The position numbers and the translations under genes are program-made. The notes under the pieces were generated by a model. The model searched no databases and was not told where the DNA came from. It worked only from the letters and a program-made list of their open reading frames with translations. Shown piece by piece: positions 6,074-37,572 of a DNA stretch of 48,195 nt. The stretch spans positions 1-48,195 of the forward strand of contig JAABRO010000021.1 in NCBI GenBank assembly GCA_011390885.1. Reading direction: 5' to 3'. Source of the DNA: Gemmatimonas sp. Lineage in GTDB: Bacteria; Gemmatimonadota; Gemmatimonadetes; Gemmatimonadales; Gemmatimonadaceae. The number at the start of each line of letters is the position of its first letter. The stretch's first letter is position 1.

Positions 6074-6202
6074 CTCCTTATGTTGCGTCGGTGCAGCGCA
6101 CTGTTGCGGTCGCGAAACGATGGCGCCGATCGCGCGTCCATGAGGCAGCACGGATCTTCGCGCCCCTTGCTGTCGTCCGCATCATACGAACGAAACTACC
6201 GC

Positions 6203-7669
6203 ATGACCGCTCCTGCCCACGCCCTCGACTCCATGGCCCCCCTGCGCATCCTGCTCGTGGACGACGATCGCACCGTGCGCGAAGGAGCGGCTCGCGTGCT
6301 CCAGCTCGATGGACACGTGGTCACCCAGCTCGGCCGCTCCGACGAGGCGCTGCAGCTGCTGCGCCAGCGCTCCTTCGACCTGCTGATCTGCGACCTCGAG
6401 CTCTCACCGGTCTCGGGCACGGAACTGCTCCGGTCGGGGCGCGAGGCGGGTACGCTCGTGATCGTCACCACCAGCAACCCGAGCGTGGAGTCCAACCTGG
6501 CCGCGCTGCAGGCGGGAGCGTGGGAGTACCTGCCCAAGCCGTTCGCCGCAGCGCACCTGCAGGTGCTCGTGGGGCGCGCCGCGCTGGCCGTGGCCCAGCA
6601 GGGATCGGGCCCCTCGCGGCCGGGCCGAGGCAAGGCCGGGGCTGACGCGGAGCAGCGTGGTGCGGGCACCGCGCTGCTGGGGGAGAGCCCCGCGCTGCAG
6701 AAGGCCATCGCCCTCGCGGCCAAGGTGGCCGCCACCGATGCCAGCGTCATGATCTCCGGCGAGAGCGGCACCGGCAAGGAGCTCATCGCCCAGTTCATTC
6801 ACGCCCAGAGCCGCCGCGCCAACAAGCCGCTCGTGCCCGTGAACTGTGCCGCCCTTCCGGACAACCTGCTCGAGAGCGAAATGTTCGGGTACCGCAAGGG
6901 CGCCTTCACCGGGGCCGACCGCGACAAGACGGGGCTGCTCGAAATGGCCCACCGTTCCACGCTCTTCCTCGATGAGCTCACGGAGATGGCCATGCCGCTG
7001 CAGGCCAAGCTGCTCCGCGTGCTGCAGGACGGCGTCGTGCGCCGCCTCGGCTCCGAGACGCAGGACGCGATCGTGGACGTGCGTTTCGTGTCCGCCACGA
7101 ATCGGGACCCGCAGGAAGCGGTGCGTCAGGGGCTGCTGCGCGAGGACCTGTTCTACCGGCTGCGCGTGGTGCCCATCAAGCTGCCGCCGCTGCGCCAGCG
7201 CCCCGAGGACATCGTGCTGCTCGCCCGGCACTTCCTGACGCAGGCCTGGGAGCGGCATCGCCGCGGTGGCGAGGCGCCGTTCTTCGCCGACGACACGCTC
7301 GCTGCGCTGCAGGCGCGCCCGTGGCGCGGCAATGTGCGTGAGCTGCAGAACCTCGTGGAGCACGTGGCCGTGATCTCCACGGCTGGCACCGTGATCGAGC
7401 CGGACGACCTGCCCAGCCACGACGACGAGATCATGCCGGGGGCCGCCGAGGGGATGGTGGGGCTGCAGGCGCTGCTCGACAAGCCGTTCCATACGGCCAA
7501 GGACGAGCTCGTCGCGCAGTTCGAGCAGGAATATGTGCGCCGCATCACCAGCAAGACCCGGGGCAACATGAGCAAGGCGGCCCGGCTGGCGGGGATCGAC
7601 CGCACCACACTGTACCGTCTCATGGAGAAGCACGGAGCGCTGCGCGGCGACGATCCGGCCCCCGAGTGA
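6203..7669 (+). CDS. sigma-54-dependent response regulator (NtrC/PrsR-like)
   Basis: This 488-residue transcription activator has three domains. The receiver (about 13-128) has the acidic pocket LVDDD, phospho-acceptor Asp64 in LLICDLEL and the conserved Lys in LPKPF. The AAA+ domain (about 150-390) has Walker A GESGTGKE, the sigma-54-contacting loop GAFTGA (233-238), Walker B LFLDEL and the GNVREL segment. A Fis-type helix-turn-helix closes the protein (NMSKAARLAGIDRTTLYR). All residues needed for phosphorylation, ATP hydrolysis and sigma-54 contact are present. The start at 6203 is provisional; ATG at 6233 is an alternative. It is divergent from the exopolysaccharide operon, and no histidine kinase is encoded in the window. 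Exosortase loci often carry such a regulator (PEP-CTERM-box response regulator), making the consensus sigma-54 site at 14331 a natural target. That link is inference. Confidence 0.93.
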   Translation: MTAPAHALDSMAPLRILLVDDDRTVREGAARVLQLDGHVVTQLGRSDEALQLLRQRSFDLLICDLELSPVSGTELLRSGREAGTLVIVTTSNPSVESNLAALQAGAWEYLPKPFAAAHLQVLVGRAALAVAQQGSGPSRPGRGKAGADAEQRGAGTALLGESPALQKAIALAAKVAATDASVMISGESGTGKELIAQFIHAQSRRANKPLVPVNCAALPDNLLESEMFGYRKGAFTGADRDKTGLLEMAHRSTLFLDELTEMAMPLQAKLLRVLQDGVVRRLGSETQDAIVDVRFVSATNRDPQEAVRQGLLREDLFYRLRVVPIKLPPLRQRPEDIVLLARHFLTQAWERHRRGGEAPFFADDTLAALQARPWRGNVRELQNLVEHVAVISTAGTVIEPDDLPSHDDEIMPGAAEGMVGLQALLDKPFHTAKDELVAQFEQEYVRRITSKTRGNMSKAARLAGIDRTTLYRLMEKHGALRGDDPAPE

Positions 7670-7789: not shown

Positions 7790-9148
<1,359 letters not shown>

Positions 9149-10629: not shown

Positions 10630-12603
10630 ATGTGCGGCATTGCGGGCATGCTGCGACTCGACGGAGGCCCGGTCGATCGCGCACTGTTGGTGCGCATGCG
10701 GGACGCACTCTGGCATCGCGGTCCCGACGACGCGGGCCTGTGGACCGACGGATCCGTCGGCCTCGCGCACCGTCGTCTGTCCATTCTCGACCTCTCGCCG
10801 CTCGGTCACCAGCCGATGCGCGCGCCCGGTGGCAACGCCACGATCGTGTTCAACGGCGAGATCTTCAACTTCGTGGAGTTGCGCGAGGCGCTCATCGCCG
10901 AGGGCGAGGTGTTCGTGTCCACGTCCGACACCGAGGTGCTGCTGCGCCTGTGGCAGCGTCGGGGTGCGGCGTGCGTGGATCCGCTCGTGGGCATGTTCGG
11001 GTTCGCGGTCTGGGATGAAGCCCGCGGGGAGCTGTTCGCGGCGCGCGATCGGCTGGGCATCAAGCCGTTCTATTACACGCGCACGAGTACGCACTGGCTG
11101 TTCGCCTCGGAGATCAAGGCGTTGCTTGCGCACCCCGAGGTGTCGCCGCGCCTCGATGCGTGCGCCTATGCCGATGTCAGCTATGCAGGATATGCGCTGG
11201 GCGACCGCACGCTGTTCGAGGGAATTCACGCACTGCCGCCTGGGCACTCGCTCACGTTTCGCAACGGCGAGCTGTCGGTGCGTCCGTACTGGTCGTTGCG
11301 GTACGAATACGATCGGCGGCGCACCCTCGACGAGACGGTGGAGGCGCTGCGGCCGCTGCTGGATGACGCCGTGCGCATGCACTGTCGTAGCGATGCGCCC
11401 ATCGGTGCCCATCTCAGCGGCGGCCTGGATTCGAGCACCGTGGCGACGCTGGCGGCGGAGCATCGGCCGGCGCTCCCCACCTTCTCCATCCGCTTTGCGG
11501 AAGGCGGCGCGTACGACGAGTCGCGGTACGCGCGTGCGGTCGCGACGCGCATCGGGTCCACGCACCATGAGGAATCGCCGGCGGACATCCCGCTCGAATC
11601 GCTGCTGCCGTTCCTCATTCATCATGTCGAGACCCCGGTCACCCGCACGGCCATCGCCTACTTCGGCGCGGCGCGGCTCGCGCGCCGGCATGTCACGGTC
11701 GCACTGACCGGCCACGGCGGCGATGAGGTGTTCGGCGGGTATCCGGCACAGTTCGAGGTCGGGCTCGGGGTTCCGGGCGATGCCGCGAGTGCAATGCTCG
11801 CGGTGCAACCGATGTCATCGGCGCAGTCACTCGCCTTCGCGTGGCACAGCGAGGGGCCGAACGGCCTCTGGCGACGGGTGACAGGCAGGCTGCGGCGAAG
11901 CGGATCGACGGGCCCAGCCTCGGCATCGGATGCGTGGATCGCCCGCCACTGCGGGCTCCCCGAGCCGGCATCGCATCCATCGCTCTCGGATGCGTTCAAG
12001 CGCGACCTGGGCGGTTATTCGCCGCGCACGGGATTTCTCGAGGCGTTCGACCACGCGCCCACCGACGAACTGTTCGACCGGTGCGTTCACCACGACCTGC
12101 GTTCGTACCTGCCGAGTCTCCTGCATGTCGAGGACCGGACGAGCATGGCGCTGTCGCTGGAATCGCGGGTGCCGCTGCTCGATCATCGCCTGGTCGAGTT
12201 CGCAGCCACGGTACCGCCCGACGTGAAGGTTGCCGGACATCGCTCCAAGCAGCTCATCCGATTGGCGATGCGCGGACGCCTCCCCGACGAACTCATCGAT
12301 CGACGCGACAAGGGCGCCTTCCCGGTGCCGGTGGAACGGTGGATGGCGGGCCCCTTCGGCGACTGGGCGCGGCGCGTGTTGTCGGAGCCGCGCTCGCTCG
12401 AGCGCGGCGTGCATCGGCCGGAGTGGATCAGGGCGTGCGTGCGTCACGGACGATCGCTCTTTCCGCTGCTCGCGTTCGAGCTGTGGTCGCGCCTGTTCCT
12501 CGATGGCGATCGCCCGTTGCTCGATGAGGCGCGTGAGACGGCGGACCGCGTGCGCCGCGACCTGCGGCTGACTACGGCGCCGGAGCCGGTGATGCAGGAC
12601 TGA
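10630..12603 (+). CDS. asparagine synthase-type glutamine amidotransferase
   Basis: The 657-residue protein begins MCGIAG, so Cys2 is the class-II glutaminase nucleophile after Met removal. RHRGPD-like (WHRGPDD), FNGEIFN and other N-domain motifs follow. The synthetase domain has the PP-loop SGGLDSS (263-269) and GHGGDEVFGGYP. Both half-reactions look intact: glutamine hydrolysis and ATP-dependent amide formation on an acid. A GGAG ribosome site lies at 10617-10620. In exosortase/exopolysaccharide loci, relatives (exosortase-associated amidotransferases, WbpS-like) are thought to amidate sugar acids rather than make free asparagine. The location between a glycosyltransferase and a flippase supports that, though true asparagine synthase cannot be excluded. 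The last 32 bp overlap the convergent flippase gene. Confidence 0.93.
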   Translation: MCGIAGMLRLDGGPVDRALLVRMRDALWHRGPDDAGLWTDGSVGLAHRRLSILDLSPLGHQPMRAPGGNATIVFNGEIFNFVELREALIAEGEVFVSTSDTEVLLRLWQRRGAACVDPLVGMFGFAVWDEARGELFAARDRLGIKPFYYTRTSTHWLFASEIKALLAHPEVSPRLDACAYADVSYAGYALGDRTLFEGIHALPPGHSLTFRNGELSVRPYWSLRYEYDRRRTLDETVEALRPLLDDAVRMHCRSDAPIGAHLSGGLDSSTVATLAAEHRPALPTFSIRFAEGGAYDESRYARAVATRIGSTHHEESPADIPLESLLPFLIHHVETPVTRTAIAYFGAARLARRHVTVALTGHGGDEVFGGYPAQFEVGLGVPGDAASAMLAVQPMSSAQSLAFAWHSEGPNGLWRRVTGRLRRSGSTGPASASDAWIARHCGLPEPASHPSLSDAFKRDLGGYSPRTGFLEAFDHAPTDELFDRCVHHDLRSYLPSLLHVEDRTSMALSLESRVPLLDHRLVEFAATVPPDVKVAGHRSKQLIRLAMRGRLPDELIDRRDKGAFPVPVERWMAGPFGDWARRVLSEPRSLERGVHRPEWIRACVRHGRSLFPLLAFELWSRLFLDGDRPLLDEARETADRVRRDLRLTTAPEPVMQD

Positions 12604-14179
12604 CCGTGGCGTCCGGCGTCGCCTGCGGCACGGCCGCGGCACCGCGCATCGCCCTGAGCGACGCGACCACGTCACGCACGCGCCGTCGGTGCAGGAGCAC
12701 GAGCGATCCGACGTACGCCGCGGCGCCAGCGGCCACCTTCAGCGCGAAGAGCACCACATCGCTGACCGCGCCGTCCGTTATCGACGCGACGCCGACCACG
12801 GCCCCGGTCATGACGACTGCGCTGCTGGTGGCGGGCCACAGTGACCTGGCCATCGAGCGCAGGCTGAGGTCGAGGCGTCGCCGCGTGCGGAAGAAGAGCG
12901 GCCCCCGCACGAGCGGCAGGCATACGAACCACGCCGCGGCCACACCCGTCACGCCCCATCGGGCCCCGATGAGCAGGATCACGGGCACGACCAGCACGGC
13001 GAACACACCGTTGCGCGCCACGAATGAGGACTCGCCGCTCACGACCAGGATCTGCGGAAAGATCGACGTGATCGAGGGGATCACGCCCTGCAGCGCCACG
13101 AGCTGCAGGGGCACGGTCACGTCCCGCCATTCGGCGCTCAGGAACACGCGCACGAACTCGGGCGCCACGAGCGCCGTGCCCACGCACAGCGGGAACGTGG
13201 CCACGGCCAGGCCTTCGGTGATCAGGTACACATAGCGACGAAGGGCCGGGGCATCGTCCTGCGCCGCCGCGAATATGGCGGGTGTCACCCGCATCGTCAT
13301 GCCGGTGACCTTGTCGACCGCGATGGCTCCGAGGGCTCGGGCCAGCGTATACAGGCCCAGCGGCCCGTCACCCAGGACTCGGCCGATGATGAGCGAGTCC
13401 GCCGTGGAGTATCCGTAGCCGGCCACGCGCTCCACCAGGATGTTCCGGCTGAAACGAACCGCCGCCGCGATCTCCCGCGTGGGTCGCGCGAACGGCACCG
13501 GACGCAGGCGCATGTTCATCACGGTGGCCGCGAGTTGTCCCGCCGTGGGTCCGAGGGCCAGCGCCCAGTACCCGGCGCCCGCTGCGGCGAGGGTGAGGGT
13601 GGTGGCGGTCATGATCAGGGCCTGCAGCACTTCGAGTCGCGCCAGCGCGTCGAACCGCAGCTCGCGCTGCAGCAGTGCGTACGGCACCACGCGAGCGGCC
13701 GCGATCACGAACCCCACGCTCATGACCGCGACCACCATCGGCAGCTCCGCCGAGTCGAAGAAGTGGCCGAGCGGCAGGGCGACAAGGAGCGACAGCAGCA
13801 TGGCGCCCACCCCGAACACCATGGACAGCCCATTGACCTGTGCGACCGAGCGGTCGGTGAGGTCGCGCATGGCCAGCACGACGGTCCCGAGACCGAACTC
13901 GCTCATCAGGCGTGCCAGGCCGAGAAACACCGTGGCCATGGCCACGATGCCGTAGTCGGACGGCAGCAGCAGCCGCGCGACCAGGATCGTCGAAAGCCAG
14001 GAGACGATCTGGGTGCCCCAGTTCGAGATCCAGGTCCAACCGAGTCCCCGGAGCAAGGCGCGGTCGAGCGATCGACGCGCGCTCGCGACGTCGGCGGCCG
14101 TCGCAGCCGCAGAGGCATGTCCGACGTCTGGCACAGGCGGTGCCGTGTCGAACGCGGCCGGCCCGTCTTGGGTTGGCAT
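12572..14179 (-). CDS. oligosaccharide flippase (Wzx/MOP superfamily)
   Basis: This 535-residue polytopic membrane protein of the PST/MOP type would move a lipid-linked oligosaccharide across the inner membrane. After a polar N-terminus of about 40 residues, repeated hydrophobic helices run to about residue 500. Characteristic segments include ILVARLLLPSDYGIVAMATVF near TM1-2 and GRVLGDGPLGLYTLARAL in the middle. I used ATG at 14179 because the frame upstream is atypical and runs into the NRPS control region. It is transcribed towards the amidotransferase, and the two 3' ends overlap by 32 bp with no terminator. It pairs functionally with the sugar transferase and export genes at the left end. 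Confidence 0.9.
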   Translation of the reverse strand: MPTQDGPAAFDTAPPVPDVGHASAAATAADVASARRSLDRALLRGLGWTWISNWGTQIVSWLSTILVARLLLPSDYGIVAMATVFLGLARLMSEFGLGTVVLAMRDLTDRSVAQVNGLSMVFGVGAMLLSLLVALPLGHFFDSAELPMVVAVMSVGFVIAAARVVPYALLQRELRFDALARLEVLQALIMTATTLTLAAAGAGYWALALGPTAGQLAATVMNMRLRPVPFARPTREIAAAVRFSRNILVERVAGYGYSTADSLIIGRVLGDGPLGLYTLARALGAIAVDKVTGMTMRVTPAIFAAAQDDAPALRRYVYLITEGLAVATFPLCVGTALVAPEFVRVFLSAEWRDVTVPLQLVALQGVIPSITSIFPQILVVSGESSFVARNGVFAVLVVPVILLIGARWGVTGVAAAWFVCLPLVRGPLFFRTRRRLDLSLRSMARSLWPATSSAVVMTGAVVGVASITDGAVSDVVLFALKVAAGAAAYVGSLVLLHRRRVRDVVASLRAMRGAAAVPQATPDATVSPASPAPAP

Positions 14180-14315
14180 CAGGTACGTGCGTGCGTGCGA
14201 GCGGAGGGAAGGGCGCGGCGCCACATGGCATCGTCGACCCACTAATCTTAGCAGGCGACGACGATGGCGTGCCGTTCCTTCGGGGACGCGCGGCGCTGGT
14301 CGGCGCAACCTCCTC

Positions 14316-14325
14316 GTGACGTCAC
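14316..14325. promoter_or_regulatory. palindrome GTGACGTCAC
   Basis: A perfect 10-bp palindrome containing TGACGTCA ends 5 bp before the -24 element. That is too close for a classical distal enhancer, so overlap with RNA polymerase (repression) or a separate activator are both possible. Confidence 0.45.
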
Positions 14326-14330
14326 AGTCG

Positions 14331-14345
14331 TGGCACGCGTGTTGC
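14331..14345 (+). promoter_or_regulatory. consensus sigma-54 (-24/-12) promoter
   Basis: TGGCAC, five bases (GCGTG), then TTGC matches the RpoN consensus exactly. The invariant GG (14332-14333) and GC (14344-14345) are 12 bp apart. Transcription would start near 14356, upstream of every plausible NRPS start. It is the only exact match I found in the window. Confidence 0.8.
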
Positions 14346-14427
14346 GCTTGGAAGGCGAATGCGGTCAGGTATCCTGTGTGGCTGGTGGAACGTCTGGTAG
14401 CTGGACGACCCATCGCCGCGCCGTCCC

Positions 14428-14437
14428 CTGACGTCAG
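14428..14437. promoter_or_regulatory. palindrome CTGACGTCAG
   Basis: This second perfect 10-bp palindrome with the TGACGTCA core lies 112 bp downstream of the first, between the sigma-54 promoter and the NRPS start. The two sites bracket the promoter. Confidence 0.4.
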
Positions 14438-14501
14438 CGGACGCGGCGCGCATGTGACCGCTGCGTCCGATCCGGCTCCTCCTCCCGACGTGCACACCCC
14501 G

Positions 14502-17500
14502 ATGACCCTCACCCACCGCGGAACTTCGGCCCCACCGCTCCTGACCGATCTCGTGCTGCTCGGCCTCGTGGCCGGCGGTGACGAGCCGGTTCGGGTGACC
14601 GTGGATGCCACCTTCGCGGGGCGCGCCGATGAAGTCGCGTTCCGAACCGTCTGGCAGCGACTGGCGGAACAGGCGCCCGCACTCCGGCTTCGTCTCGGCG
14701 GTGATCGGGATGACGCCCCCGAACTCGAGCCGGGCCTGGCCTGTGACGCCGCGCTCGGCTGGCTTGGCGCGTGGAGCACGTCGCCGGCGGATGCGTTGTG
14801 GAGCGCCGAGGCAGTCGCCGGAACGGAGCAGGCGCTGACGGTGCGCTTCTCGCATCATCCGGCCCTGCTGGACGAGCGTTCGCGACTGCGGCTGCTCGAG
14901 ATCTGGGGTGAGGCATACGCGGCAGAACTCGCGGGGCGGGAATGGTCGGCCGCTGGACTCGCAGGTGGCGATCCGGAGTCGGAGGCCCCAGCGGCGGGCG
15001 CGCAGGCCAGTGATGTCGAACTCGCGGAGGCATTCTGGCGCCCTCGACTGTCCGCCGCTCCCGTCTCGCGTTTGTGGGCGTCGGGTGACGGTCTGTCGGC
15101 CGATCGCGTGGCGATCCGCCTGCGCGCGCTCGACGCGTCCATGCTTCGCCAGCTCGACCAACTTGCTGCCGACCTGGGTACCGACCCGGAAACCATCGTG
15201 GAGGCGGCGTTGGGGCTGGTGCTCGCGCGCGCCACAGGTTCCGACGAGGTCCGCTTCGTGGTTCGACGCGCAACGCCGTCCTTCGCGCCAAGGCTGCTGG
15301 CCGCGCCAGGCGCCCACGACCTGGTGCGGCCGTCGGCGTACTCGGTCGATGCGCACGCCTCCGTCCGCGAGGCCGTCCGCCTCACTGCGGAGCTGCACCG
15401 CGCCGCGGAGCCGCATTCCTGGCTGCCGCTCTCGCAGCTTGCCCGGTGGGATGCGCCGCGCGGATCGACCCGCGTCGCGGACGTGCTGCTCATGGTCGAC
15501 CTCGAGCCCGCGTTGGCTGCGGTCCGGGACGCACTCGGCGGTGATCTCGCCGTCCTGCGCGAACCTACCGGCTTCCCCCTCACGATCACGCTGCGCCGCT
15601 CGGCGCGCCCGCTGCTGCGCGCCGAGTTCGACGCCGCGCTCGTGCCCGAGCCGACGGTCGATGCGCTGCTGGAGGCGCTCAGCACCGTGCTCGCACAGTG
15701 GTGCGCCGCGCCGGACGCACCGCTCGGTGCCATTCGCCTGTCGCCACCTGAGCAACCGGTGTCACCGGCGCCGTTCGCGCCCGGTTCCGCGGAGCCGGCA
15801 TGGCAGGGCGGCATTGCCAGCGCGCTGAGCGTCCACTCGCTCACGGCGCCGCAGGCGCCAGCGGTGGCGTGTGGCGATGAGTCGCTCACGTACGACGACC
15901 TCGAGGCCCGCGCCGCCCTGATCGGCGGGCACCTGCGGGCGGCCGGAGTGTCGCGCGGCGACATCGTGGCGTTGCATCTCGAGCGCGGCCCCGAGCTGGC
16001 GGCCGCGGTGCTGGGCATCCTGCGCGCCGGCGCCGCCTGGCTGCCGCTCGATCCCGCCTACCCGCGCGGTCGCACGCTCGACGTGCTGCGCCGGAGCGGC
16101 GCGCGCTGCGTGCTCACCCAACGCGCCCTGGCCGGGGTGCTCGCCGAGGCGGGCGTCCCCGAACTGCTGCTCGAGGATGCCCCCTCGGCCGAGCCGGTGC
16201 CGCCGCTCGAGATGTCGCCGGACGAACCGGCGTACCTCATCTACACCTCGGGCTCCACAGGCACTCCCAAGGGCGTGCTCGTCTCGCACGGGAACGTGGT
16301 GCGTTACGCGCGCGCGCTGGGAGAGGTCGTGGGGCTGGAGCCCACGGATCGCTGGCTGCACACGGCGTCCATGGCGTTCTCGTCGTCCGTGCGCCAGCTG
16401 CTGGTGCCGCTGCTCAATGGCGCGACCGTGGTGATCGCCCGGCGTGCCGAGGTCGCGGATCCGCGCGAGCTGCTGCGCGTGGCGCGGCAGGCGCGGATCA
16501 CCATCATGGACCTCGTGCCCTCGTACTGGGCGCGCGTGGTGGAGGCGCTCGAGGCGGAGCCCGCGCTGGCGGTCCCCTCGCTTCGGCTCGCCCTGTCGGC
16601 CAGCGAGCCGCTGCCGGCGGCGGTGCTCGAGCGCTGGTTGCGGCTCGCGCCGGAGGGACAGCGGTTCATCAACATGTTCGGGCAGACGGAGACCACCGGG
16701 ATCGTGGCGGCCGGAGAGGTCACGCTCGAGGACTGCCGCGACGGCGCCATTCTCCCGCTCGGTCGGGCGCTCCCGGGCAATCGCCTCCTGGTGCTCGATG
16801 CCGCCGGCCAGCCCCTGCCGGCCGGCCTCACCGGCGAGATCGTCGTGAGTGGCAGCAACGTGGGGCTCGGCTACCTCGGTGACCCGGAGCTCACGGCCGC
16901 CCGCTTTCGACCGGATCCGTTCCACGGCAACGGAGCGCGCCTGTACGCGACCGGCGACCGCGGCTACGTGCGCCCGGACGGGCGGCTCGCGTTCGTCGGT
17001 CGGCAGGACAATCAGGTCAAGGTGCGCGGCCACCGCGTGGAAGTGGAGGAGATCGAAGCGGTGCTCACGCGCCACGTCGGCGTGTCCGAGGCGGCCGTGG
17101 ACGTGCGCGTCGATGCGGGGGGTGACGTGCGCCTCGTGGCGTTCGTGGTCCCCGCCGTGGCCGGCGAGGCGCCCGCCGCGCGCGAACTGCGTGACCATCT
17201 CGCCGCCACGCTGCCGGACTACATGATGCCGGCCGCGTTCACGCCAAGCGTCGCGCTGCCGCGCACCCCGAACGGCAAGCTCGACCGAGCGGCGCTGCGC
17301 GCGCTCGCGGTGGACTTCGCACCGATCGCCCCCTCGTACGTGGCTCCCCGAACGCCCCTCGAGTCCGAACTCTCGGCGCTCTGGTGCGAGGTGCTTGGCG
17401 TGTCACGGGTGGGGGTGAGCGACCACTTCTTCGAGATCGGCGGCCACTCCCTCATGGCCATTCGCGTGCTCGCGCGCATTCGGGCCACCCACGGGGTGGA

Positions 17501-20500
17501 CCTGCCGGTGCGGGTGCTGTTCGAGCGACCCACGGTGGCGGCGCTTGCCGAGGAGATCTCGGCGCGTCTCGTCAGCGCGTCGGCCGAGGTGCCGCTGCGC
17601 CCGCTGGCCGACGGTGCGGAGGCGCCGCTCTCGTTCGCCGAAGAGCGGCTGTGGGTGCTGCACCAGATGGAGCCGGAGAGCGCTGCCTACAACCTGGTGG
17701 CGGCGTTCCGCATTCATGGGCGGCTCGACCGCAACGCGCTCGTGGCCGCGCTCTCGTCGATCGAGCGGCGCCACCAGTCGCTGCGCACCGTCTTCCCGAG
17801 CCCCGACGGCATGGCGCGTGCCGAGGTGCGCCCCCCGCGCACCTTCCCGCTCACCGTGGAGCATGTGGCGAGCGGCGAGAGCCGTGACGAATCGCTCCGC
17901 GCTCGCGCCGCCGAGCTGGCCGCCGTGCCGTTCGATCTCGCCGAGGGGCCGCTCTTCCGCGGTACCCTGCTCGAGGCGGACACGAGCGATCACCTGCTGG
18001 TGCTCGTGATGCACCACGTGATCTCGGACGGCTGGTCGCGCGGTGTGCTCTATCGCGAACTGGGCGAGGCGTACGCACTCTTCGCGACCGGGCGCCCGGA
18101 CGATCGCCCCGAACTCGCCATCCAGTACCGCGACTACGCGGCGTGGCAGCGCGCGCGCCTCACCGAGGGCGTGATCGAGGCGCAGTCCGCGTACTGGTCC
18201 CGACAGCTCGCCGGACCGCTCCCGACGCTGGACCTCCCCACGGACCGTCCGCGGCCGCCGGTGCAGACGTACAAGGGCGCCACCCACAGCTTCCTCATTC
18301 CGCCGCGCCTCGCGGAACGGCTGCGCGAACTCGGGGCTGCCGAAGACGCGACGTCGTTCATGGTGCTGCTGGCCGCGTTCCAGGCGTTGCTCGGCCGCTA
18401 CAGCGGACAGGACGATGTGGTCGTGGGGTCTCCCACCGCCGGTCGCACGCGCGTGGAGACGGAGCCGCTGATCGGCTTCTTCGTGAACACGCTCGCGCTG
18501 CGCGCCGACCTCTCGGGCAACCCGAGCTTCCGCTCGCTGCTCGCGCGCGTGCGCCGCATGGCGCTCGATGCGTTCGAGCACCAGGACCTGCCCTTCGAGC
18601 GGCTCGTGGAGTCGCTCAAGCTGCCGCGTGACCTGAGCCGTTCGCCGCTCTTCCAGGTGCTGTTCATTCTGCAGAACACCCCCGTGCATCCGCTCACGCT
18701 GCCCGGGCTCACGCTGCAGCAGGTGGATGTGGACGCGGGCGCGGCGAAGTTCGACGTGACGCTCGCGCTCGTGAACGCCGATGGCGGCTACACGGGGCAT
18801 CTCGAGTACAACACCGACCTGTTCGATGCGAGCACCGTCGAGCGCCTCGCGGGACACTACGTGCGCCTGCTCGAGGCCGCCGCAGAGGCGCCTGATCGCC
18901 CCATCGGGCGGCTGGCGCTGCTCACGTCGCCCGAACGCGAGCAGCTGCTGCACGCGTGGAACGCCACCGATGTCGAACTCCCGACCGGCGACACGATCGT
19001 CTCGCAGTTCGAGGGGCAGGTCGCGCGCACACCCGATGCGCCCGCGGCCACCTTCGAGCTCGAGACGCTCAGCTATGGCGAGCTCAATGCGCGCGCGAAC
19101 CGCCTTGCGGCGCACCTGCGCACGCTCGGGGTGGGGCCGGACACGCTCGTCGGCATCTACATGGAGCGTTCGCTCGAGATGCTCGTGGGCATGCTCGCCG
19201 CCATGAAGGCGGGCGGTGCGTACCTGCCACTCGACCCGGCGTACCCGGATGACCGGATCGCCTTCATGCTCGAAGACAGCGGGGCGCCGGTGGTGCTCAC
19301 GCAGGCGCGCCTGATGAGCAAGCTGCCTGCACGGGAGGGCGTGCAGGTGGTGCGCGTCGATGCCGATGCGGCCGCCTTCGCGACCCGCTCGTCGGAGAAC
19401 CCGGCGCCGACCGCCGGGCCGGCGCACCTCGCCTACCAGATCTACACCTCCGGCTCGACCGGCCGCCCCAAGGGCGTCATGATCGAGCACCGGAACGTGA
19501 TCAACTTCTTCGTGGGCATGGACGAGCGTGTCGGTGGCGATGCCCCGGGCACGTGGCTCGCCGTGACCAGCATCTCGTTCGACATCTCGGTGCTCGAGCT
19601 GCTCTTCACGCTCACGCGCGGCTATCACGTGATCGTGCAGGGTGACCCGGAGCGCGTGCGCCAGCAGCAGGCGGTCAAGCGCTCGGACCGCAAGCTGGGG
19701 TTCAGCATCTTCTACTGGGGAAGCGATGCGCATGCGGCCACCGAGAACCGCTACCGCATGCTGCTCGACGGCGCGAAGTTCGCCGATGCGAACGGGTTCG
19801 AGGCCGTCTGGGTGCCGGAGCGACACTTCCACTCGTTCGGTGGGCTGTATCCCAGCCCCGCGGTGGCGAGCGCTGCGATCGCGGCTGCCACGTGCCGCAT
19901 CAAGCTGCGCAGCGGCAGCGTGGTGCTGCCGCTGCACAGCCCGGTCCGGGTGGCCGAAGACTGGTCCGTCGTGGACAACCTGTCCAACGGGCGTGTGGGA
20001 CTCGGCTTCGCGTCCGGCTGGCACGACCGCGACTTCGTGTTCGCGCCCGACAACTACGCGAACCGTCGCCAGGTGCTCACGGAATACATCGACATCGTGC
20101 GCCGCCTGTGGCGCGGGGAGACGGTCACGCTCCCCGGTGGTAGCGGCACGCCGGTGCAGATCGCCACGTTGCCGCGACCGATCCAGCCCGAGCTGCCGGT
20201 GTGGGTGACGGCGGCCGGCACGCCGGCCACGTACGAGATGGCGGGCACCACGGGTGCCAACGTGCTCACGCACCTGCTCGGGCAGACGCCCGAGACGCTG
20301 CGCGAGAAGATCGCGATCTACCGTGCGGCCCGGAAGCGCGCCGGTCATGAGGGCCCCGGCCACGTCACGCTGATGCTGCACACCTACGTCCACGAGGACA
20401 TGGAGCACGTCAAGCGCACGGTGTGGCATCCGTTCCGCGAGTACCTGCGCACTTCGGTGGACCTCATCAAGGGGCTGGCCGAGGGGCGCGGACAGGACAT

Positions 20501-21926
20501 GCGGTCGGCCGAGTTCACCGCCGAGGACATGGAGGCGCTGCTCGACCACGCGTTCCATCGCTACTTCGACACGAGCGCCCTGCTCGGCACGCCCGAGACC
20601 TGCTCCGAGATGGTGGAGCGCCTCAAGGGCATGGACGTGGACGAGATCGCGTGCCTGATCGACTTCGGCATCCCCGATTCGGAGACCATGGGCAGCCTCG
20701 AGCTGCTCGCCGAACTGCGCCGGCGCTCGGACGAGAGCTCGGCCACCGCGTCGGCCGACTTCGACATCAAGGCGCAGCTCGAGCGCTGGAACGTCACCCA
20801 CTTCCAGTGCACGCCGTCCATGGCGGCCATGCTCACGCAGGAACCGGAGACGCGGTCCGCGCTCGCCGGCCTCCAGTGCCTCATGGTGGGCGGGGAAGCG
20901 TTCCCCACCGCACTGGCGGGCGAACTGCAGGCGCTGGTGCGTGGCCGTGTGGTGAACATGTACGGGCCCACCGAGACCACGATCTGGTCGGCCACGCACA
21001 CACTCGACGGCGCTGCCGGTGCGGTGCCGCTGGGCACGCCGATCGCGAACACCGTCTGCCATGTGGTCGATCGCAACCTGGAGCTGGTGCCGGTGGGCGT
21101 GCCCGGTGAACTGCTCATTGGCGGCGAGGGCGTAGTGCGCGGGTATCATGCGCGCCCGGAGCTCACGGCGGAGCGCTTCCTCGACGATCCGTTCCTGGGG
21201 CGCGGCCGTGTGTACCGCACGGGCGACCTCGTACGCTGGCGCGCTGATGGCCGACTGGAGTTCCTCGGCCGCATCGACCATCAGGTGAAGGTGCGCGGCC
21301 ATCGCATCGAGCTTGGCGAGATCGAGACGGCGCTGGAAGCCGAAGCGTCGGTGCGTGAGGCCGTCGTGATGGTGCGCAGCTTCGGCGCGGACGACAACCG
21401 CCTTGTGGCGTATGTGGTTCCGTCGCGCGGCACCGTGGATGCGGGTGCGCTGCGGCAGGCACTCGGTGCACGCCTGCCGGAGTACATGGTGCCGCAGCAC
21501 GTGGTGCCCATGGAGCGACTGCCGCGCACGCCGAACCTGAAGGTGGATCGCAAGGCGCTGCCGGCCCCGAACGAGGTCGCCGCCGCGCCCGCCGCGACCT
21601 TTGTGCAGCCCGGCAGCGAGCTGGAGTCGCAGATCGCGGCGATCTGGCGGGACGTGCTGCAGCTGCCGCAGGTAGGTGTCAGCGACAACTTCTTCGACAT
21701 CGGTGGACACTCGTTGCTGACCGTGAAGGTGCACATGCGCCTGCGCGGGGCGATCGACAAGCCGGTCTCGATCACCGATCTCTTCCGATTTCCGACCATC
21801 CGGTCGCTGGCCGAGCACCTGGGTGGTGCAGCGCCGGCAGCGCCGACGGGCGAAAAGGCGCAGGCGCGAGCGGATGCTCGCCGCGAAGCGCTGCAGAACC
21901 GTCGCGCACGACGGGGAACCTCCTGA
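14502..21926 (+). CDS. NRPS: C*-A-PCP-C-A(Ox)-PCP with embedded luciferase-like monooxygenase
   Basis: This two-module NRPS has about 2474 residues. Domains: a degenerate condensation-like domain (about 1-430) whose motif reads HHPALLDE at 118-125; adenylation 1 (about 438-940; YTSGSTG at 581); PCP1 (Ser983); an active condensation domain (about 1030-1470; HHVISDG from 1171); adenylation 2, first half (YTSGSTG 1648, Asp1694); a luciferase-like flavin monooxygenase (about 1728-2080) set between core motifs A4 and A5; adenylation 2, second half (NMYGPTE 2152, A10 Lys2347); and PCP2 (Ser2404). My reading of the adenylation-2 specificity residues is DILQMGMIWK, close to the glycine consensus. Adenylation 1 has FSSSV where Asp is expected, so its substrate may lack a normal alpha-amino group. 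Starts at GTG 14454 or 14490 are also possible. No terminal thioesterase is present; the chain should pass to the PKS 14 bp downstream. Confidence 0.95.
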   Translation: MTLTHRGTSAPPLLTDLVLLGLVAGGDEPVRVTVDATFAGRADEVAFRTVWQRLAEQAPALRLRLGGDRDDAPELEPGLACDAALGWLGAWSTSPADALWSAEAVAGTEQALTVRFSHHPALLDERSRLRLLEIWGEAYAAELAGREWSAAGLAGGDPESEAPAAGAQASDVELAEAFWRPRLSAAPVSRLWASGDGLSADRVAIRLRALDASMLRQLDQLAADLGTDPETIVEAALGLVLARATGSDEVRFVVRRATPSFAPRLLAAPGAHDLVRPSAYSVDAHASVREAVRLTAELHRAAEPHSWLPLSQLARWDAPRGSTRVADVLLMVDLEPALAAVRDALGGDLAVLREPTGFPLTITLRRSARPLLRAEFDAALVPEPTVDALLEALSTVLAQWCAAPDAPLGAIRLSPPEQPVSPAPFAPGSAEPAWQGGIASALSVHSLTAPQAPAVACGDESLTYDDLEARAALIGGHLRAAGVSRGDIVALHLERGPELAAAVLGILRAGAAWLPLDPAYPRGRTLDVLRRSGARCVLTQRALAGVLAEAGVPELLLEDAPSAEPVPPLEMSPDEPAYLIYTSGSTGTPKGVLVSHGNVVRYARALGEVVGLEPTDRWLHTASMAFSSSVRQLLVPLLNGATVVIARRAEVADPRELLRVARQARITIMDLVPSYWARVVEALEAEPALAVPSLRLALSASEPLPAAVLERWLRLAPEGQRFINMFGQTETTGIVAAGEVTLEDCRDGAILPLGRALPGNRLLVLDAAGQPLPAGLTGEIVVSGSNVGLGYLGDPELTAARFRPDPFHGNGARLYATGDRGYVRPDGRLAFVGRQDNQVKVRGHRVEVEEIEAVLTRHVGVSEAAVDVRVDAGGDVRLVAFVVPAVAGEAPAARELRDHLAATLPDYMMPAAFTPSVALPRTPNGKLDRAALRALAVDFAPIAPSYVAPRTPLESELSALWCEVLGVSRVGVSDHFFEIGGHSLMAIRVLARIRATHGVDLPVRVLFERPTVAALAEEISARLVSASAEVPLRPLADGAEAPLSFAEERLWVLHQMEPESAAYNLVAAFRIHGRLDRNALVAALSSIERRHQSLRTVFPSPDGMARAEVRPPRTFPLTVEHVASGESRDESLRARAAELAAVPFDLAEGPLFRGTLLEADTSDHLLVLVMHHVISDGWSRGVLYRELGEAYALFATGRPDDRPELAIQYRDYAAWQRARLTEGVIEAQSAYWSRQLAGPLPTLDLPTDRPRPPVQTYKGATHSFLIPPRLAERLRELGAAEDATSFMVLLAAFQALLGRYSGQDDVVVGSPTAGRTRVETEPLIGFFVNTLALRADLSGNPSFRSLLARVRRMALDAFEHQDLPFERLVESLKLPRDLSRSPLFQVLFILQNTPVHPLTLPGLTLQQVDVDAGAAKFDVTLALVNADGGYTGHLEYNTDLFDASTVERLAGHYVRLLEAAAEAPDRPIGRLALLTSPEREQLLHAWNATDVELPTGDTIVSQFEGQVARTPDAPAATFELETLSYGELNARANRLAAHLRTLGVGPDTLVGIYMERSLEMLVGMLAAMKAGGAYLPLDPAYPDDRIAFMLEDSGAPVVLTQARLMSKLPAREGVQVVRVDADAAAFATRSSENPAPTAGPAHLAYQIYTSGSTGRPKGVMIEHRNVINFFVGMDERVGGDAPGTWLAVTSISFDISVLELLFTLTRGYHVIVQGDPERVRQQQAVKRSDRKLGFSIFYWGSDAHAATENRYRMLLDGAKFADANGFEAVWVPERHFHSFGGLYPSPAVASAAIAAATCRIKLRSGSVVLPLHSPVRVAEDWSVVDNLSNGRVGLGFASGWHDRDFVFAPDNYANRRQVLTEYIDIVRRLWRGETVTLPGGSGTPVQIATLPRPIQPELPVWVTAAGTPATYEMAGTTGANVLTHLLGQTPETLREKIAIYRAARKRAGHEGPGHVTLMLHTYVHEDMEHVKRTVWHPFREYLRTSVDLIKGLAEGRGQDMRSAEFTAEDMEALLDHAFHRYFDTSALLGTPETCSEMVERLKGMDVDEIACLIDFGIPDSETMGSLELLAELRRRSDESSATASADFDIKAQLERWNVTHFQCTPSMAAMLTQEPETRSALAGLQCLMVGGEAFPTALAGELQALVRGRVVNMYGPTETTIWSATHTLDGAAGAVPLGTPIANTVCHVVDRNLELVPVGVPGELLIGGEGVVRGYHARPELTAERFLDDPFLGRGRVYRTGDLVRWRADGRLEFLGRIDHQVKVRGHRIELGEIETALEAEASVREAVVMVRSFGADDNRLVAYVVPSRGTVDAGALRQALGARLPEYMVPQHVVPMERLPRTPNLKVDRKALPAPNEVAAAPAATFVQPGSELESQIAAIWRDVLQLPQVGVSDNFFDIGGHSLLTVKVHMRLRGAIDKPVSITDLFRFPTIRSLAEHLGGAAPAAPTGEKAQARADARREALQNRRARRGTS

Positions 21927-21940
21927 GGACCGAAGCCAGC

Positions 21941-24900
21941 ATGAGTGATCACATCGAACTGCCCGCCGGATCTGCCGAGACCGACATCGCCATCGTGGGA
22001 ATGGCCGGTCGCTTTCCAGGTGCGCGCGATGTCGAGGAGTATTGGGCCAACCTGCGCGGCGGCGTGGAGAGCGTCACGTGGCTCACCGACGAGCAGCTGC
22101 GCGCGGCCGGCGTGCCCGAGGAGCTGATCGCCGACCCGCAGTACGTGAAGGCCTGCTATCCGCTCCCGGACATGGAGGGCTTCGACGCCGGCTTCTTCGG
22201 CTTCGCGCCGCGCGAGGCCAGCATCATGGATCCGCAGCAGCGACACTTCCTCGAACTGGCGTGGACCGCCCTCGAGTACGCCGGCCACGACCCCGCGCGC
22301 TTCGACGGCTCCATCGGCGTGTACGCCGGATGCGGTGCGAGCTCGTACCTCATGTTCAACCTGCTCTCCAACCCGGAGCTGGTGCAGAGCACGGGGATGT
22401 TCCTGTTGCGCCACACGGGCAATGACAAGGACTTCCTGGCCACGCGCGTTTCGTACCTCATGAACCTGCGGGGCCCGAGCGTGAACGTGCAGACGGCGTG
22501 CTCCACGTCGCTGGTCGCGATCCACGCCGCAGTGCAGTCGCTGCTCAACCACGAATGCGACCTTGCGCTCGCGGGGGGCAGCACGCTCAAGCAGCCGCAC
22601 ACGGTGGGGTACAAGTACGAGGAGGGCGAGATCATGTCGCCCGACGGCCACTGCCGGAGCTTCGACGAGAAGGCCGAGGGCACGATCTTCGGCAGCGGCG
22701 CGGGGGTGGTGGTGCTGCGCCGCCTCGTGGATGCGATCCGGGACGGCGACACGATCCACGCCGTGATCAAGGGCTCGGCCATCAACAACGACGGGTCGCA
22801 GAAGGTGGGTTACCTCGCGCCGAGCGTGGACGGGCAGGCGGCCGTCATCGAGGAGGCGCTCCGCCTCGCCGATATCTCGCCGGAGGATGTGCAGTACGTG
22901 GAGTGCCACGGCACGGCGACTCCGGTGGGTGATCCGATCGAGGTGACGGCGCTCACGCAGGCGTACCGCTCGGCCGGCGCTCAGCACAATGGCTACTGCG
23001 CCATCGGCACGGTCAAGTCGAACATCGGACATCTGGACACGGCTGCGGGTGTCGCCGGCGTCATCAAGACGGTGCAGGCGCTCAAGCATCGCGAGATTCC
23101 GCCGTCGCTGCACTACACGGCGCCCAATCCGGCCATCGATTTCGAGACCAGTCCGTTCTTCGTCAACGCGACGCTGCGGACGTGGGAGACCGATGGGCGT
23201 GCGCGCCGCGCGGGTGTGAGCGCTCTTGGCGCGGGTGGCACCAATGCGCATGTCGTGCTCGAGGAGGCGCCGGCGCTGCCGCCGTCATCACCCGCGCGCG
23301 ACCTGCAGCTGTACGTGCTGTCGGCGAAGACCCCCTCGGCGCTCGATGCGCAGGCCATGAACCTCGCCGATTTCCTCGAGCGCACCGACGCGCCTGCGGC
23401 CGATGTCGCCTTCACGCTGGCCGCGGGCCGCCATGCGTTCGCGCATCGCCGTGCCGTCGTCGCCGCGTCCGCGCACGAAGCCGCCGCGCTGCTCCGGGCC
23501 AACGATCCGAAGCAGCTGCCCTCGGGCACCGTGTCGGATCGGCCGCGCTCCGTCGCGTTCATGTTCGCCGGTGGTGGCGCACAGCACCCCGGCATGGGCG
23601 AGGATCTCTATCGCACCGAGGCGGTCTACCGCGCGGCAGTGGACGAGTGCATCGCGCTGCTGCAGCCGCGGCTGGATTGGGACCTCAAGGCGCTGCTCTA
23701 CCCGCCCGTCGCGCAGCGTGAAGCGCTCGCGGCGGAGATGGAGCGCCCGTCTCGCTCGCTGCCCTGCCTGTTCATCACGCAGTACGCCATGGCAAAGCAG
23801 TGCCTCGCGTGGGGGCTCGAGCCCTCGGCCATGATCGGGCACAGCATGGGTGAGTACACGGCGGCGCATCTGGCGGGCGTATTCTCGCTTGCCGATGGGC
23901 TCGCCCTCGTCACCCTGCGTGGCCAGCTCTTCGAGAAGGTGCCCGCGGGCGGCATGCTCAGCGTGTCGCTGTCGGCCGAGGAGCTGGCGAAGCGGTTGCC
24001 GCCGGAGCTCTCGATCGCGGCGGTGAACGCGCCCGAGCTGTGCGTGGCGTCGGGACCGCTCGACGCGCTCGAGCGTCTCGAGGCGGCGCTCGAGGCCGAT
24101 GAGATCGACAGCCGCCGCGTGCGCATCAACATTGCGGCGCACTCGAGCATGCTCGAGCCCATCCTTGCCGAGTTCGGTGCCTTCTTCCGCGGGATCACGC
24201 TGTCGGCGCCCGAGCGGCCGTTCGTCTCGAATGTGAGCGGCACCTGGATCACCGCCGAGCAGGCCACCTCGCCGGACTACTGGGTGCGACACCTGCGCCA
24301 GACGGTGCGCTTCGCCGACGGCGTGGGCGTGCTGCTCGAGGACGCCGGTCGCGTGCTGGTGGAGGTGGGGCCGGGGCGCATCCTCGCCACGCTGGCGGGC
24401 CTGCACCCGGCGCGGTCGAAGGAGCAGGTCACGCTCACGTCGATGCGGCACCCCGACGAAGCCGCGCACGATGTCGCGCACGCGCTCGGCCTGCTGGGGC
24501 GCGCGTGGGTGGCTGGTGTCCCGCTGCGGAGCGAGGCGCTGTGGCATGATGAACGGCGGCGTCGCCTGCCGCTCCCCACGTACCCGTTCGAGCACCAGCC
24601 GTACTTCATTGCGCCGGGCAAGCCGGCGGTGGCGGCGCCCTCGCTCGCCAAGCGCGCCGATGTGGGCTCGTGGTTCCACGCGCCTGCGTGGGTGCGCTCG
24701 CCGGTGCAGCCGTCCGATGTGCCGGCCGATGCGCGCTGGCTCGTGTTCCATGACGACCAGGGCACCGGTCGTGCCCTCGTCGAGGCGCTCGTGCAGCGTG
24801 CGGGCCGCGTCGACGCCGTGATCTCCGTGATCCCCGGCGATGGCTATGCGGCCATCGACGCGCGCACGTTCCGGATCGACCCGTCGGAGCCGGAGCACGC

Positions 24901-27628: not shown

Positions 27629-28413
27629 ACCCGTTCTACTTCGGCTCGTCGAAGTCGCCGCTGTACGGCGTGTACCATCCGCCGCGTGCGGGTGAGGGGG
27701 CGGGGAAGGCCGTGCTGCTGTGCTATCCCATGGGCGCCGAGTACATGCGCGCGCATCGAGCGTTCCGGCAGCTCACCACGCTGCTCGTGAAGGGCGGCGC
27801 GCATGTGCTGCGCTTCGATTATTTCGGCACCGGCGACTCGGCCGGTGAGGGGACGGAGGCGACCGTGGCACGGTGGCTCGAGGACATCGACGTGGCCATT
27901 GACGAGCTCAAAGAAACGGCGCAAACGACCTCGGTGACCATCGTGGGGCTGCGCTTCGGGGGCACGCTGGCCGCGCTGGCGAGCACGGAGCGCAACGATG
28001 TGGAGCAGGTCGTGCTCTGGGATCCGATCATCGATGGCACGCAGTACGTGCAGGACCAGCTGGCGGCGCACGAGGGGGAGCGGCGTCGGCGCGGCGGGCC
28101 GGCGAACGCGGAAACGGCAGGGGTGCACGGGTTCCCGCTCACGAGCGCGATGCGCGCGGCGATCGAGCCGATCGACCTGCTCACGTGGCCGGGTGGCAAC
28201 AGCCGCATCGAGATCGTGACCTCCGCGGAGCGCGAGGACGCGCGCGACCTGGCGGGTCGGCTCGCTGCGCGTGGTCGTGCGGTGCGCGCGCAGGTGTTCC
28301 CGAGCAACGGCAACTGGGCCGAATCTGACGCGTTCGGGTCGGCGCTGATTCCCCAGGGCATCATCCAGGGCGTGCTGGGGTGCGTTCTGGGAGACAAGGT
28401 GACGAGCGCATGA
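27625..28413 (+). CDS. alpha/beta-hydrolase-like protein, no nucleophile (cassette copy 1, member a)
   Basis: This 262-residue alpha/beta-hydrolase-fold protein begins at an ATG that overlaps the PKS stop (ATGA). The oxyanion and strand landmarks are clear (AVLLCYPMGAEY, RFDYFGTGDS, VVLWDP), but the nucleophile elbow reads GLRFGG with Arg110 where Ser would be. The homologue at 34275 has Arg at the same residue number. From memory, this GLRxG elbow and a following VLW phrase resemble exosortase A system-associated hydrolase 2. The protein may be a non-catalytic partner of the next gene product, or use another mechanism. Position directly after a carrier-protein domain suggests work on carrier-bound intermediates; that is inference. 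A frame opening upstream inside the PKS gene is discounted. Confidence 0.85.
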   Translation: MNPFYFGSSKSPLYGVYHPPRAGEGAGKAVLLCYPMGAEYMRAHRAFRQLTTLLVKGGAHVLRFDYFGTGDSAGEGTEATVARWLEDIDVAIDELKETAQTTSVTIVGLRFGGTLAALASTERNDVEQVVLWDPIIDGTQYVQDQLAAHEGERRRRGGPANAETAGVHGFPLTSAMRAAIEPIDLLTWPGGNSRIEIVTSAEREDARDLAGRLAARGRAVRAQVFPSNGNWAESDAFGSALIPQGIIQGVLGCVLGDKVTSA

Positions 28414-29279
28414 GAGAGAAGGCAGTCAAGTTCGGGGCCAATCGCGGTCTCGTCGGCATCGTGGCGGAACCCACCGTGCCGGTGGCCGGCAAGCCGGCGG
28501 TCGTGCTGCTCAACTCCGGCATCCTGCACCATGTGGGGGCCTCGCGGCTCTACGTGCGGGTTGCCCGTCGTCTCGCGGCGGCCGGACACGCCACGCTGCG
28601 GTTCGACTTTTCAGGGATCGGCGATTCCGAACCGCGCAGGGACACGCTCGGCGCCGCCGAGAGTGCGGTGGTCGAGACGCGTGAGGCGATGGACCTGCTG
28701 CAGACCCGCAAGGGTGGCACTGACCGATTCATCCTGTTCGGGTTGTGCTCCGGGGCCGACATGGGCTTCAAGACGGCCGGCGTTGACGAGCGCGTGGTGG
28801 GGCTGGTGCAGCTGGATCCATTTGCGTATCGCACGCGCGGGTACTATGTGCACCACTATGGCCCGAAGCTGGTCAGCGTGGATGCGTGGCGGAACTACGT
28901 GAGCGTGCGCGTTCGGCGCTGGCGCGCGAAGCGGGAGGCGGCGCGGCGGGTGCCGGGCGCGGTCGACGAGGAGCGCCTGGAGTACGTGGCTCCCGAGTAT
29001 CGCCGCATCTTTCCGCCGCGCGAGCAGACGAAGGCGAGGCTGGAGGCGCTGCTCGCTCGGCGCGTGCAGCTGCTCAATGTCTTCTCGAGCGGCATGCCCG
29101 ACCACTACAATCACGAGCGGCAGTACCGGGACGCCTTCGCCGACATCGACTTCGGCAATCAGCTGCAGGTGGACTTCATTGCGGGCGCCGAGCACACGTT
29201 CACCTATCTCCCCGACCAGGAGCGGGTGCTCGAGATCGTCGATCGCTGGGCCCAGCGCGTCTTCCCAGGATCCGGCTGA
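28410..29279 (+). CDS. alpha/beta hydrolase with Cys nucleophile (cassette copy 1, member b)
   Basis: This 289-residue alpha/beta hydrolase starts at ATG 28410, overlapping the previous stop (ATGA). Landmarks are LNSGILHHVGASR, LRFDFSGIGDS and an elbow FGLCSGAD in which Cys113 takes the nucleophile position. A late AEHTF provides a candidate catalytic His, and QLDPF may carry the acid. From memory, the G-x-C elbow resembles exosortase A system-associated hydrolase 1, which is reported to occur next to a second, distantly related hydrolase, as here. Cys hydrolases of this fold include dienelactone hydrolase, so thioester hydrolysis or acyl transfer is plausible. The homologue at 34988 repeats the same arrangement. 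Confidence 0.85.
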   Translation: MREKAVKFGANRGLVGIVAEPTVPVAGKPAVVLLNSGILHHVGASRLYVRVARRLAAAGHATLRFDFSGIGDSEPRRDTLGAAESAVVETREAMDLLQTRKGGTDRFILFGLCSGADMGFKTAGVDERVVGLVQLDPFAYRTRGYYVHHYGPKLVSVDAWRNYVSVRVRRWRAKREAARRVPGAVDEERLEYVAPEYRRIFPPREQTKARLEALLARRVQLLNVFSSGMPDHYNHERQYRDAFADIDFGNQLQVDFIAGAEHTFTYLPDQERVLEIVDRWAQRVFPGSG

Positions 29280-29299
29280 GCCGGCGGACGCGCCGCTCC

Positions 29300-30034
29300 A
29301 TGGCAACCACGATCGCCGAGGTGCGCCTCATCGACCTCCGACGCGTGCAGGCCGATGCATGGACGTTGCTCGACGAGGCGGAGCGCGTTCGCGCGGCGCG
29401 GTTCCGGCATCCGGAGGATGCGCGGCGCTGGATCGCGGCCCGCGCGGCGCTGCGCACCGAGCTCGGCGCGGCGCTCGAGGTCCCTGCGGCATCGCTCGTT
29501 TTCCGCTACAGCGCGCGCGGGAAGCCGGCGCTCGCCGGCGCCTCGGCTGGGCGGATCGCGTTCAACCTCAGCCACAGCGCGGAGTGGGTCGCCATTGCGA
29601 TGGTCCGCGCCATGGGCGACGGAGAGCCGCCGCCGGTGGGGGTCGATATCGAGGCGATTCGGCCGCTCGACGAACTCGCCGAACTGGTGGAACGCTGCTT
29701 CGCTCCCGAGGAGCGCGAGGCCTGGTGTGCGCTCGATGAAGCGCTGCGGCTCGCGGCCTTCTACCGCACCTGGGCCCGCAAGGAGGCCTGCGTGAAGGCC
29801 CTTGGCGTCGGCATTGGTGCGCCGCTCCACGCCGTCGACGTGAGGGACCCGGCATGGCCGCGCGTGCGCCTGACGGAGGCGCTCACCGGACACGAACACG
29901 CATGGTCGCTTCGCGACTTCGATGCAGCACCGGGCATCGTCGGCGCGCTCGCCGTGCCGAAGGCCGATGTGCTGTTGCAGGTGCACGACCTGTCCCGCGC
30001 AGGCGGAGAGTCGGAAGGTGACCGTGCCGCCTGA
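29300..30034 (+). CDS. Sfp-type 4'-phosphopantetheinyl transferase
   Basis: The product is 244 residues and would load phosphopantetheine from CoA onto the carrier Ser residues of the NRPS/PKS proteins in this operon. Family motifs are NLSHS, GVDIE (Mg-binding Asp116) and the WARKEACVKA segment (Lys161, Glu162). I used ATG at 29300, 20 bp after the hydrolase stop, because the frame upstream lies inside that gene. The length is normal for the Sfp group. It overlaps the next gene slightly, consistent with one transcript. Presence of a dedicated PPTase supports the cluster being self-sufficient. Confidence 0.96.
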   Translation: MATTIAEVRLIDLRRVQADAWTLLDEAERVRAARFRHPEDARRWIAARAALRTELGAALEVPAASLVFRYSARGKPALAGASAGRIAFNLSHSAEWVAIAMVRAMGDGEPPPVGVDIEAIRPLDELAELVERCFAPEEREAWCALDEALRLAAFYRTWARKEACVKALGVGIGAPLHAVDVRDPAWPRVRLTEALTGHEHAWSLRDFDAAPGIVGALAVPKADVLLQVHDLSRAGGESEGDRAA

Positions 30035-32476: not shown

Positions 32477-32481
32477 CGCAC

Positions 32482-37452: not shown

Positions 37453-37572
37453 GGCTGAGGGAAGGCGCGAGCAGGACGAGCGTCCACATGGTGACGAGCA
37501 GTGGCCCGACGTCGACACATCGGTCCCCTGCCGGACCAGTCGTCCCCGAGAAAGATCGCGCGGTCGACTCCC

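Follow-up and report, generated by a model that had tools for sequence, protein, structure and literature searches.

Gene content of the locus

The finding of a large NRPS/PKS operon within what looks like an exopolysaccharide locus of Gemmatimonas sp. raises the question of how this operon is switched on. An earlier note had pointed to a sigma-54 promoter upstream of it, and we examined this proposal in the 48,195-nucleotide stretch of contig JAABRO010000021.1 (assembly GCA_011390885.1), hereafter called the window, whose genes were predicted with a custom script. The NRPS gene (14454..21926, + strand, starting at GTG 14454 or ATG 14502) encodes a degenerate first C domain, A domains and a luciferase-like monooxygenase domain. 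The first condensation domain (14796-15750) gives a weak Pfam match (35.5 bits, profile positions 118-450) and may thus be non-canonical. Downstream on the same strand are a PKS gene (21941..27628) with KS, AT, KR, DH and carrier domains, and a further co-directional run (27589..35908) encoding alpha/beta hydrolases, a phosphopantetheinyl transferase, a GSDH-like protein, a glycosyltransferase, an A-PCP protein and hydrolases. No large gap separates the + strand genes from the NRPS gene to 35908, in agreement with the end of the operon proposed in the earlier note.

The operon end is convergent with a gene for an XrtA-like exosortase with an EpsI domain (35917..37518, - strand; 180 bits, cut-off 208), and the NRPS gene is divergent from a polysaccharide flippase gene (12572..14179, - strand, start at 14179). 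A PrsR-like response regulator of the sigma-54 activator type is encoded at 6203..7669 (+ strand; receiver, AAA+ with GAFTGA, Fis-type HTH), and the next gene codes for a citrate synthase (7715-9148). The other members of the locus encode an AsnB-like amidotransferase, exosortase-associated hydrolases, a sugar transferase, an SLBB protein and a chain-length/kinase protein, and a second NRPS/PKS block is found from 39892 on. The XrtA-associated models score under their curated cut-offs at this locus, which resembles an XrtA-type exosortase/exopolysaccharide cluster with NRPS and PKS genes within it. In the exopolysaccharide loci of relatives a citrate synthase gene (about 70-89% identity) often adjoins the activator gene, an odd location.

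A candidate sigma-54 promoter facing the NRPS gene

The candidate promoter, TGGCACGCGTGTTGC (14331..14345, + strand), matches the -24/-12 consensus TGGCAC-N5-TTGC exactly and is, as first reported, the sole exact occurrence in the window, where four matches with at most one mismatch are found vs 3.27 expected. It sits outside genes, in the 274-bp gap between the divergent flippase and NRPS genes, and is oriented to the latter, at 107 bp from GTG 14454 or 155 bp from ATG 14502. The predicted transcript start is at about 14357. The base 3' of TTGC is a G, the preferred one being A/T.

Upstream of the gene the NRPS frame stays open as far as 14013, through the whole promoter region. However, its codon usage is non-coding before ~14493 and the condensation-domain profile extrapolates to ~14445, which together led us to reject a frame starting upstream of the promoter; the promoter-like site is thus probably not within the NRPS gene.

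How far does such a match exceed chance? The exact pattern occurs at three places genome-wide vs four for a reversed control pattern, so the consensus by itself is not above chance, and in the loci of 60 relatives (1.04 Mb) it occurs twice vs four times for the control. Both occurrences in relatives (G001:C59:8645; G105, L099:1324) are inside genes and were rejected as conserved promoters. What raises the site at 14331-14345 above chance is its position, in a divergent gap, facing the NRPS gene and with the top score outside genes. This score (14.8) comes from a sigma-54 weight matrix implemented in our own script, with weights that we set from the sigma-54 consensus, and it ranks first among sites outside genes in 218,877 bases of the host genome, a set that is not random since one locus (L003) was taken for its pattern match and the PEP-CTERM loci for their genes. 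Three other gene-facing sites outside genes reach at least 13.5 in the scanned set, upstream of two PEP-CTERM genes (13.9 and 13.7) and of a clpB-like gene (13.7). High-scoring sites outside genes in the 60 relatives' loci exceed those given by column-permuted matrices only weakly (at score 14, 7 observed vs a mean of 3.6; at score 13, 11 vs 7.4). From the permuted matrices we estimate about 0.003 sites of such quality per 274-bp gap on one strand, so chance alone explains the site poorly as long as the choice of region is left out of the reckoning.

It is possible, at a probability that we place well short of even, that the -24/-12 match is nevertheless fortuitous and that a housekeeping-type promoter, also within the gap, drives the operon; one such pair of hexamers would be TTGGAA (14348-14353) and TATCCT (14370-14375), separated by 16 bp. 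The chance-level genome count of the exact sigma-54 pattern speaks for this explanation, as do the sigma-70-like hexamers themselves, which match at 8/12 positions; but a sigma-70 scan (at least 9/12) finds none in 14100-14560, and the permuted-matrix estimate for the gap argues in the opposite direction. We lean towards regarding 14331-14345 as a real sigma-54 promoter.

Two further sites deserve mention. A second exact -24/-12 match in the same genome, TGGCACCGTCGTTGC (L003:1500-1620; G000:C60:139805), lies 86 bp before the clpB-like gene, suggesting sigma-54 control of a chaperone. In another Gemmatimonas genome, TGGCACGCCATTTGCT (L250:12159-12174, G004:C76) precedes a gene with a secreted-protein-like beginning that is cut by the contig end, and is probably a further sigma-54 surface-protein promoter; the same contig also has an AsnB-like gene.

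Conservation of the operon was assessed among 394 genomes of the class. The NRPS gene was found in two of them, the host and its closest relative with the operon, Gemmatimonas sp. isolate S07.Bin085 (G004), whose contig breaks off inside the gene after some 150 codons and lacks the orthologous promoter. Orthologues of the flippase are present in six other genomes, with 39-46% identity, none of them in the genus. Searches for an orthologous locus returned nothing from the plasmid collection, and nothing from contig scans besides G004 and a Pyxidicoccus cluster whose NRPS and PKS genes are related, where neither the -24/-12 nor the palindrome motif was found in 21 kb searched on one strand.

Predicted sigma-54 promoters of PEP-CTERM genes in the Gemmatimonadaceae

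A sigma-54 reading of the site presupposes the sigma factor, and the absence of rpoN would have counted against it. The gene is present in the host genome (4e-62), in which eight sigma-54 activator genes also score strongly. PEP-CTERM genes are present in 67 of the 179 Gemmatimonadaceae genomes, the host among them with four matches over the cut-off. The set analysed comprised 94 loci, a part of the family matches listed, which gave 97 genes and 80 distinct upstream regions after duplicates, regions shorter than 300 bp and one locus (L204) had been left out. A sigma-54 site scoring at least 13 faces the gene in 25 of the 80 regions vs 1/80 on the opposite strand, and 200 column-permuted matrices give a mean of 0.6 and a maximum of 4. 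Two of the four PEP-CTERM genes of the host genome have such a site. Sigma-54 promoters of the TGGCAC-N5-TTGC type thus appear to be in use before PEP-CTERM genes, both in the family and in the host genome, and the NRPS promoter site shares with them a -24/-12 element facing its gene.

The PrsR-like activator and its predicted enhancer

The sigma-54 activator gene announced at 6203 in the earlier note is indeed there and intact (6203-7669), with its GAFTGA motif. The protein matches the whole PrsR model (NCBIfam TIGR02915) with 349.1 bits; as the curated cut-off is 502.6, we call it PrsR-like only. In the window no kinase gene adjoins it, whereas a sensor kinase gene is expected beside PrsR. 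In two relatives tested, a histidine kinase gene lies directly 3' of the activator gene (L093:1269-2360, L111:5461-6558).

A search for palindromic motifs with our own script, in those 45 of the 80 PEP-CTERM regions that have a site scoring at least 7 at 25-130 bp before the start, returned the 18-bp motif TGTnGC-N6-GCnACA with a log-likelihood of 181 vs 25-29 for shuffled sequences; widths of 20 and 22 scored slightly above 18, with the same core. In a three-fold held-out test the motif reached p<0.05 in 38/45 regions, and 39/45 score at least 10 with the model trained on those same regions. It is located about 50-180 bp upstream of the -24/-12 element in Gemmatimonadaceae PEP-CTERM promoters, and was seen at L093, L186, L187, L202, L203 and other PEP-CTERM loci across the family.

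The same motif marks the activator gene itself. In 53 of 57 relatives' loci, vs 6.3 expected, a copy scoring at least 10 lies within 500 bp before the PrsR-like activator gene; these 57 were drawn from 60 fetched loci, the others being without the activator gene or without 300 bp before it. Copies scoring at least 14 in the relatives' loci number 27 upstream of the activator gene, 20 elsewhere outside genes (including three at PEP-CTERM promoters of L093 and L099 that had already served to train the model) and 2 inside genes. The DNA-recognition helix of the activator is nearly invariant in 59/59 relatives and agrees with that encoded in the window. From the motif upstream of the activator gene and the near-invariant helix we infer that the PrsR-like activator binds TGTnGC-N6-GCnACA, which is probably its enhancer. 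Two predicted copies occupy the gap before the activator gene in the window, TGTTGCGTCGGTGCAGCG (6081..6098, score 15.1) and TGTTGCGGTCGCGAAACG (6102..6119, score 12.0). A model trained without the host genus also found the motif at the host PEP-CTERM genes (13.8 and 17.2) and beside the activator gene (15.1). No sigma-54 site scoring at least 11 faces the activator gene in the 57 loci, and three point the opposite way. Among open-licence full texts, we found no published account of a TGTnGC-N6-GCnACA enhancer.

The NRPS promoter presents a different picture. The best score of the motif in 14080-14453 is 4.2, and in the 200 bp upstream of 14331-14345 the score is no better than in shuffled sequence (p 0.43). 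Of the 25 best-scoring places listed for the window, the NRPS gap has none, and the 6081-6119 pair is the only one situated in a gap close to the activator gene. The motif at hand being the probable one of the PrsR-like activator, no recognisable activator enhancer was found near 14331-14345. The activator encoded at 6203 could still switch on the NRPS/PKS operon from this promoter, as it is intact, carries GAFTGA and belongs to the same locus, and high activator levels can bypass the enhancer according to the accessible part of a survey of such clusters (PMC3665592). With an inferred enhancer scoring at most 4.2, against at least 10 in most PEP-CTERM regions, we regard direct control by this protein as quite improbable. 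The sigma-54 control put forward in the earlier note is therefore upheld in part: rpoN, a well-placed site and the use of such promoters before PEP-CTERM genes in the family speak for it, but the role given to the 6203 activator does not fit an enhancer score of 4.2 vs 15.1 beside the activator gene.

The two palindromes

The site is flanked by two copies of TGACGTCA, which had been taken as possible sites of a second regulator. Each core lies within a perfect 10-bp palindrome, GTGACGTCAC (14316..14325, core 14317-14324), just upstream of the -24 element, and CTGACGTCAG (14428..14437, core 14429-14436), and the window holds no third copy, as originally described. Since 0.80 copies are expected and at least two occur in 19/100 shuffles, their number is ordinary, and closeness alone is unusual: among the 43 copies in the genome this is the sole pair within 200 bp, and chance would give about 0.05 pairs within 112 bp in the whole genome. 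Of these 43 copies, 31 are inside genes and 12 outside, the latter vs ~4.5 expected (10.5% non-coding); without this pair the count is 10/41, and several of the 12 do no more than overlap gene ends. All 45 PEP-CTERM upstream regions are free of TGACGTCA, which was rejected as the enhancer of the activator on these grounds. TGACGTCA does not recur before related promoters, and most of its copies are genic, so the idea of a second regulator's regulon loses its support; the palindromes are probably incidental, and the pair may have a local function without regulon backing.

A dimeric repressor or activator that binds both palindromes as a paired operator, looping out or blocking the promoter, would account for their closeness and for the modest enrichment of TGACGTCA outside genes. 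Such an arrangement seems unlikely to us, given that the flanks of the two copies differ, that the second copy forms a hairpin tip, that the window genes scanned yielded no linked regulator from a different family, and that the copies are distributed in the genome as described above. The hairpin in question is GC-rich and belongs to the predicted 5' leader (14417..14450, + strand; -20.4 kcal/mol, z -2.58). As it ends 3 nt before GTG 14454, the second palindrome could instead act as RNA, affecting the start of NRPS translation or its elongation. This too we hold to be doubtful, because stable hairpins are common in a GC-rich genome (4/200 shuffles are as stable) and no terminator was found.

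Comparison with known systems and proposed mechanism

The association of sigma-54 with NRPS/PKS genes, called uncommon in the earlier note, is not a new idea: the accessible part of a survey reports sigma-54 promoters predicted in 124/180 NRPS/PKS clusters, with an acknowledged high false-positive rate (Stevens 2013, PMC3665592). Our candidate resembles those predictions in having its -24/-12 consensus no more than 500 bp before a PKS/NRPS gene; it differs in that rpoN is present in the host and in that the surrounding locus is an exosortase exopolysaccharide cluster. The view of sigma-54 as a controller of the bacterial exterior (Francke 2011, PMC3162934) likewise ties it to exopolysaccharide and surface genes, but makes no link to polyketides, a word absent from the main text.

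The closest parallel is the PEP-CTERM/PrsK-PrsR regulon. Sigma-54 promoters before PEP-CTERM genes were proposed for Proteobacteria (Haft 2006, PMC1569441), and RpoN dependence was shown for one gene, pepA of Aquincola (PMC9850573), in the passages of these papers available to us. Both systems have such promoters with an upstream enhancer and an NtrC-type response regulator in the exosortase/EPS locus. However, the host group here is the Gemmatimonadaceae, the activator falls under the PrsR cut-off, the enhancer is TGTnGC-N6-GCnACA and not the proteobacterial 17-nt motif ending in TTTACA, and the NRPS promoter has a -24/-12 element without enhancer. A single paper was found that joins PEP-CTERM with Gemmatimonas or Gemmatimonadota; it concerns a light-responsive PEP-CTERM gene, and its available passages do not mention sigma-54 regulation.

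The explanation that we favor, and to which as a whole we give an even chance, combines a real sigma-54 promoter, activation by a route other than the usual enhancer of the PrsR-like activator, and a TGACGTCA pair that is no mark of a regulon. The promoter at 14331-14345 would start a transcript near 14357, with a leader of about 100-145 nt, that reads the NRPS/PKS operon inside the XrtA-type exopolysaccharide locus. In the absence of TGTnGC-N6-GCnACA, another of the cell's enhancer-binding proteins would be the activator, unless the PrsR-like protein acts without its usual site. The first TGACGTCA copy would be an isolated operator or due to chance, and the second the tip of the leader hairpin.

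More tentatively, and with less confidence than in this scheme as a whole, the Gemmatimonadaceae may possess their own PEP-CTERM/exosortase sigma-54 regulon, run by the PrsR-like activator through TGTnGC-N6-GCnACA, into whose locus, in this strain, an NRPS/PKS operon was inserted with its own sigma-54 promoter and no such enhancer. A second sigma-54 activator would then couple the making of an NRPS/PKS compound to the surface programme, and the TGACGTCA sites and the leader hairpin might serve for fine tuning.

If the promoter is real, a conditional, activator-dependent promoter would govern a natural-product operon in a phylum that has received little study, and would offer a way to wake the operon. 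Of greater use, perhaps, is the enhancer motif obtained along the way. It gives the exosortase-linked sigma-54 activator of the Gemmatimonadaceae a testable candidate site and predicts the targets of this protein, the NRPS operon probably not being among them.
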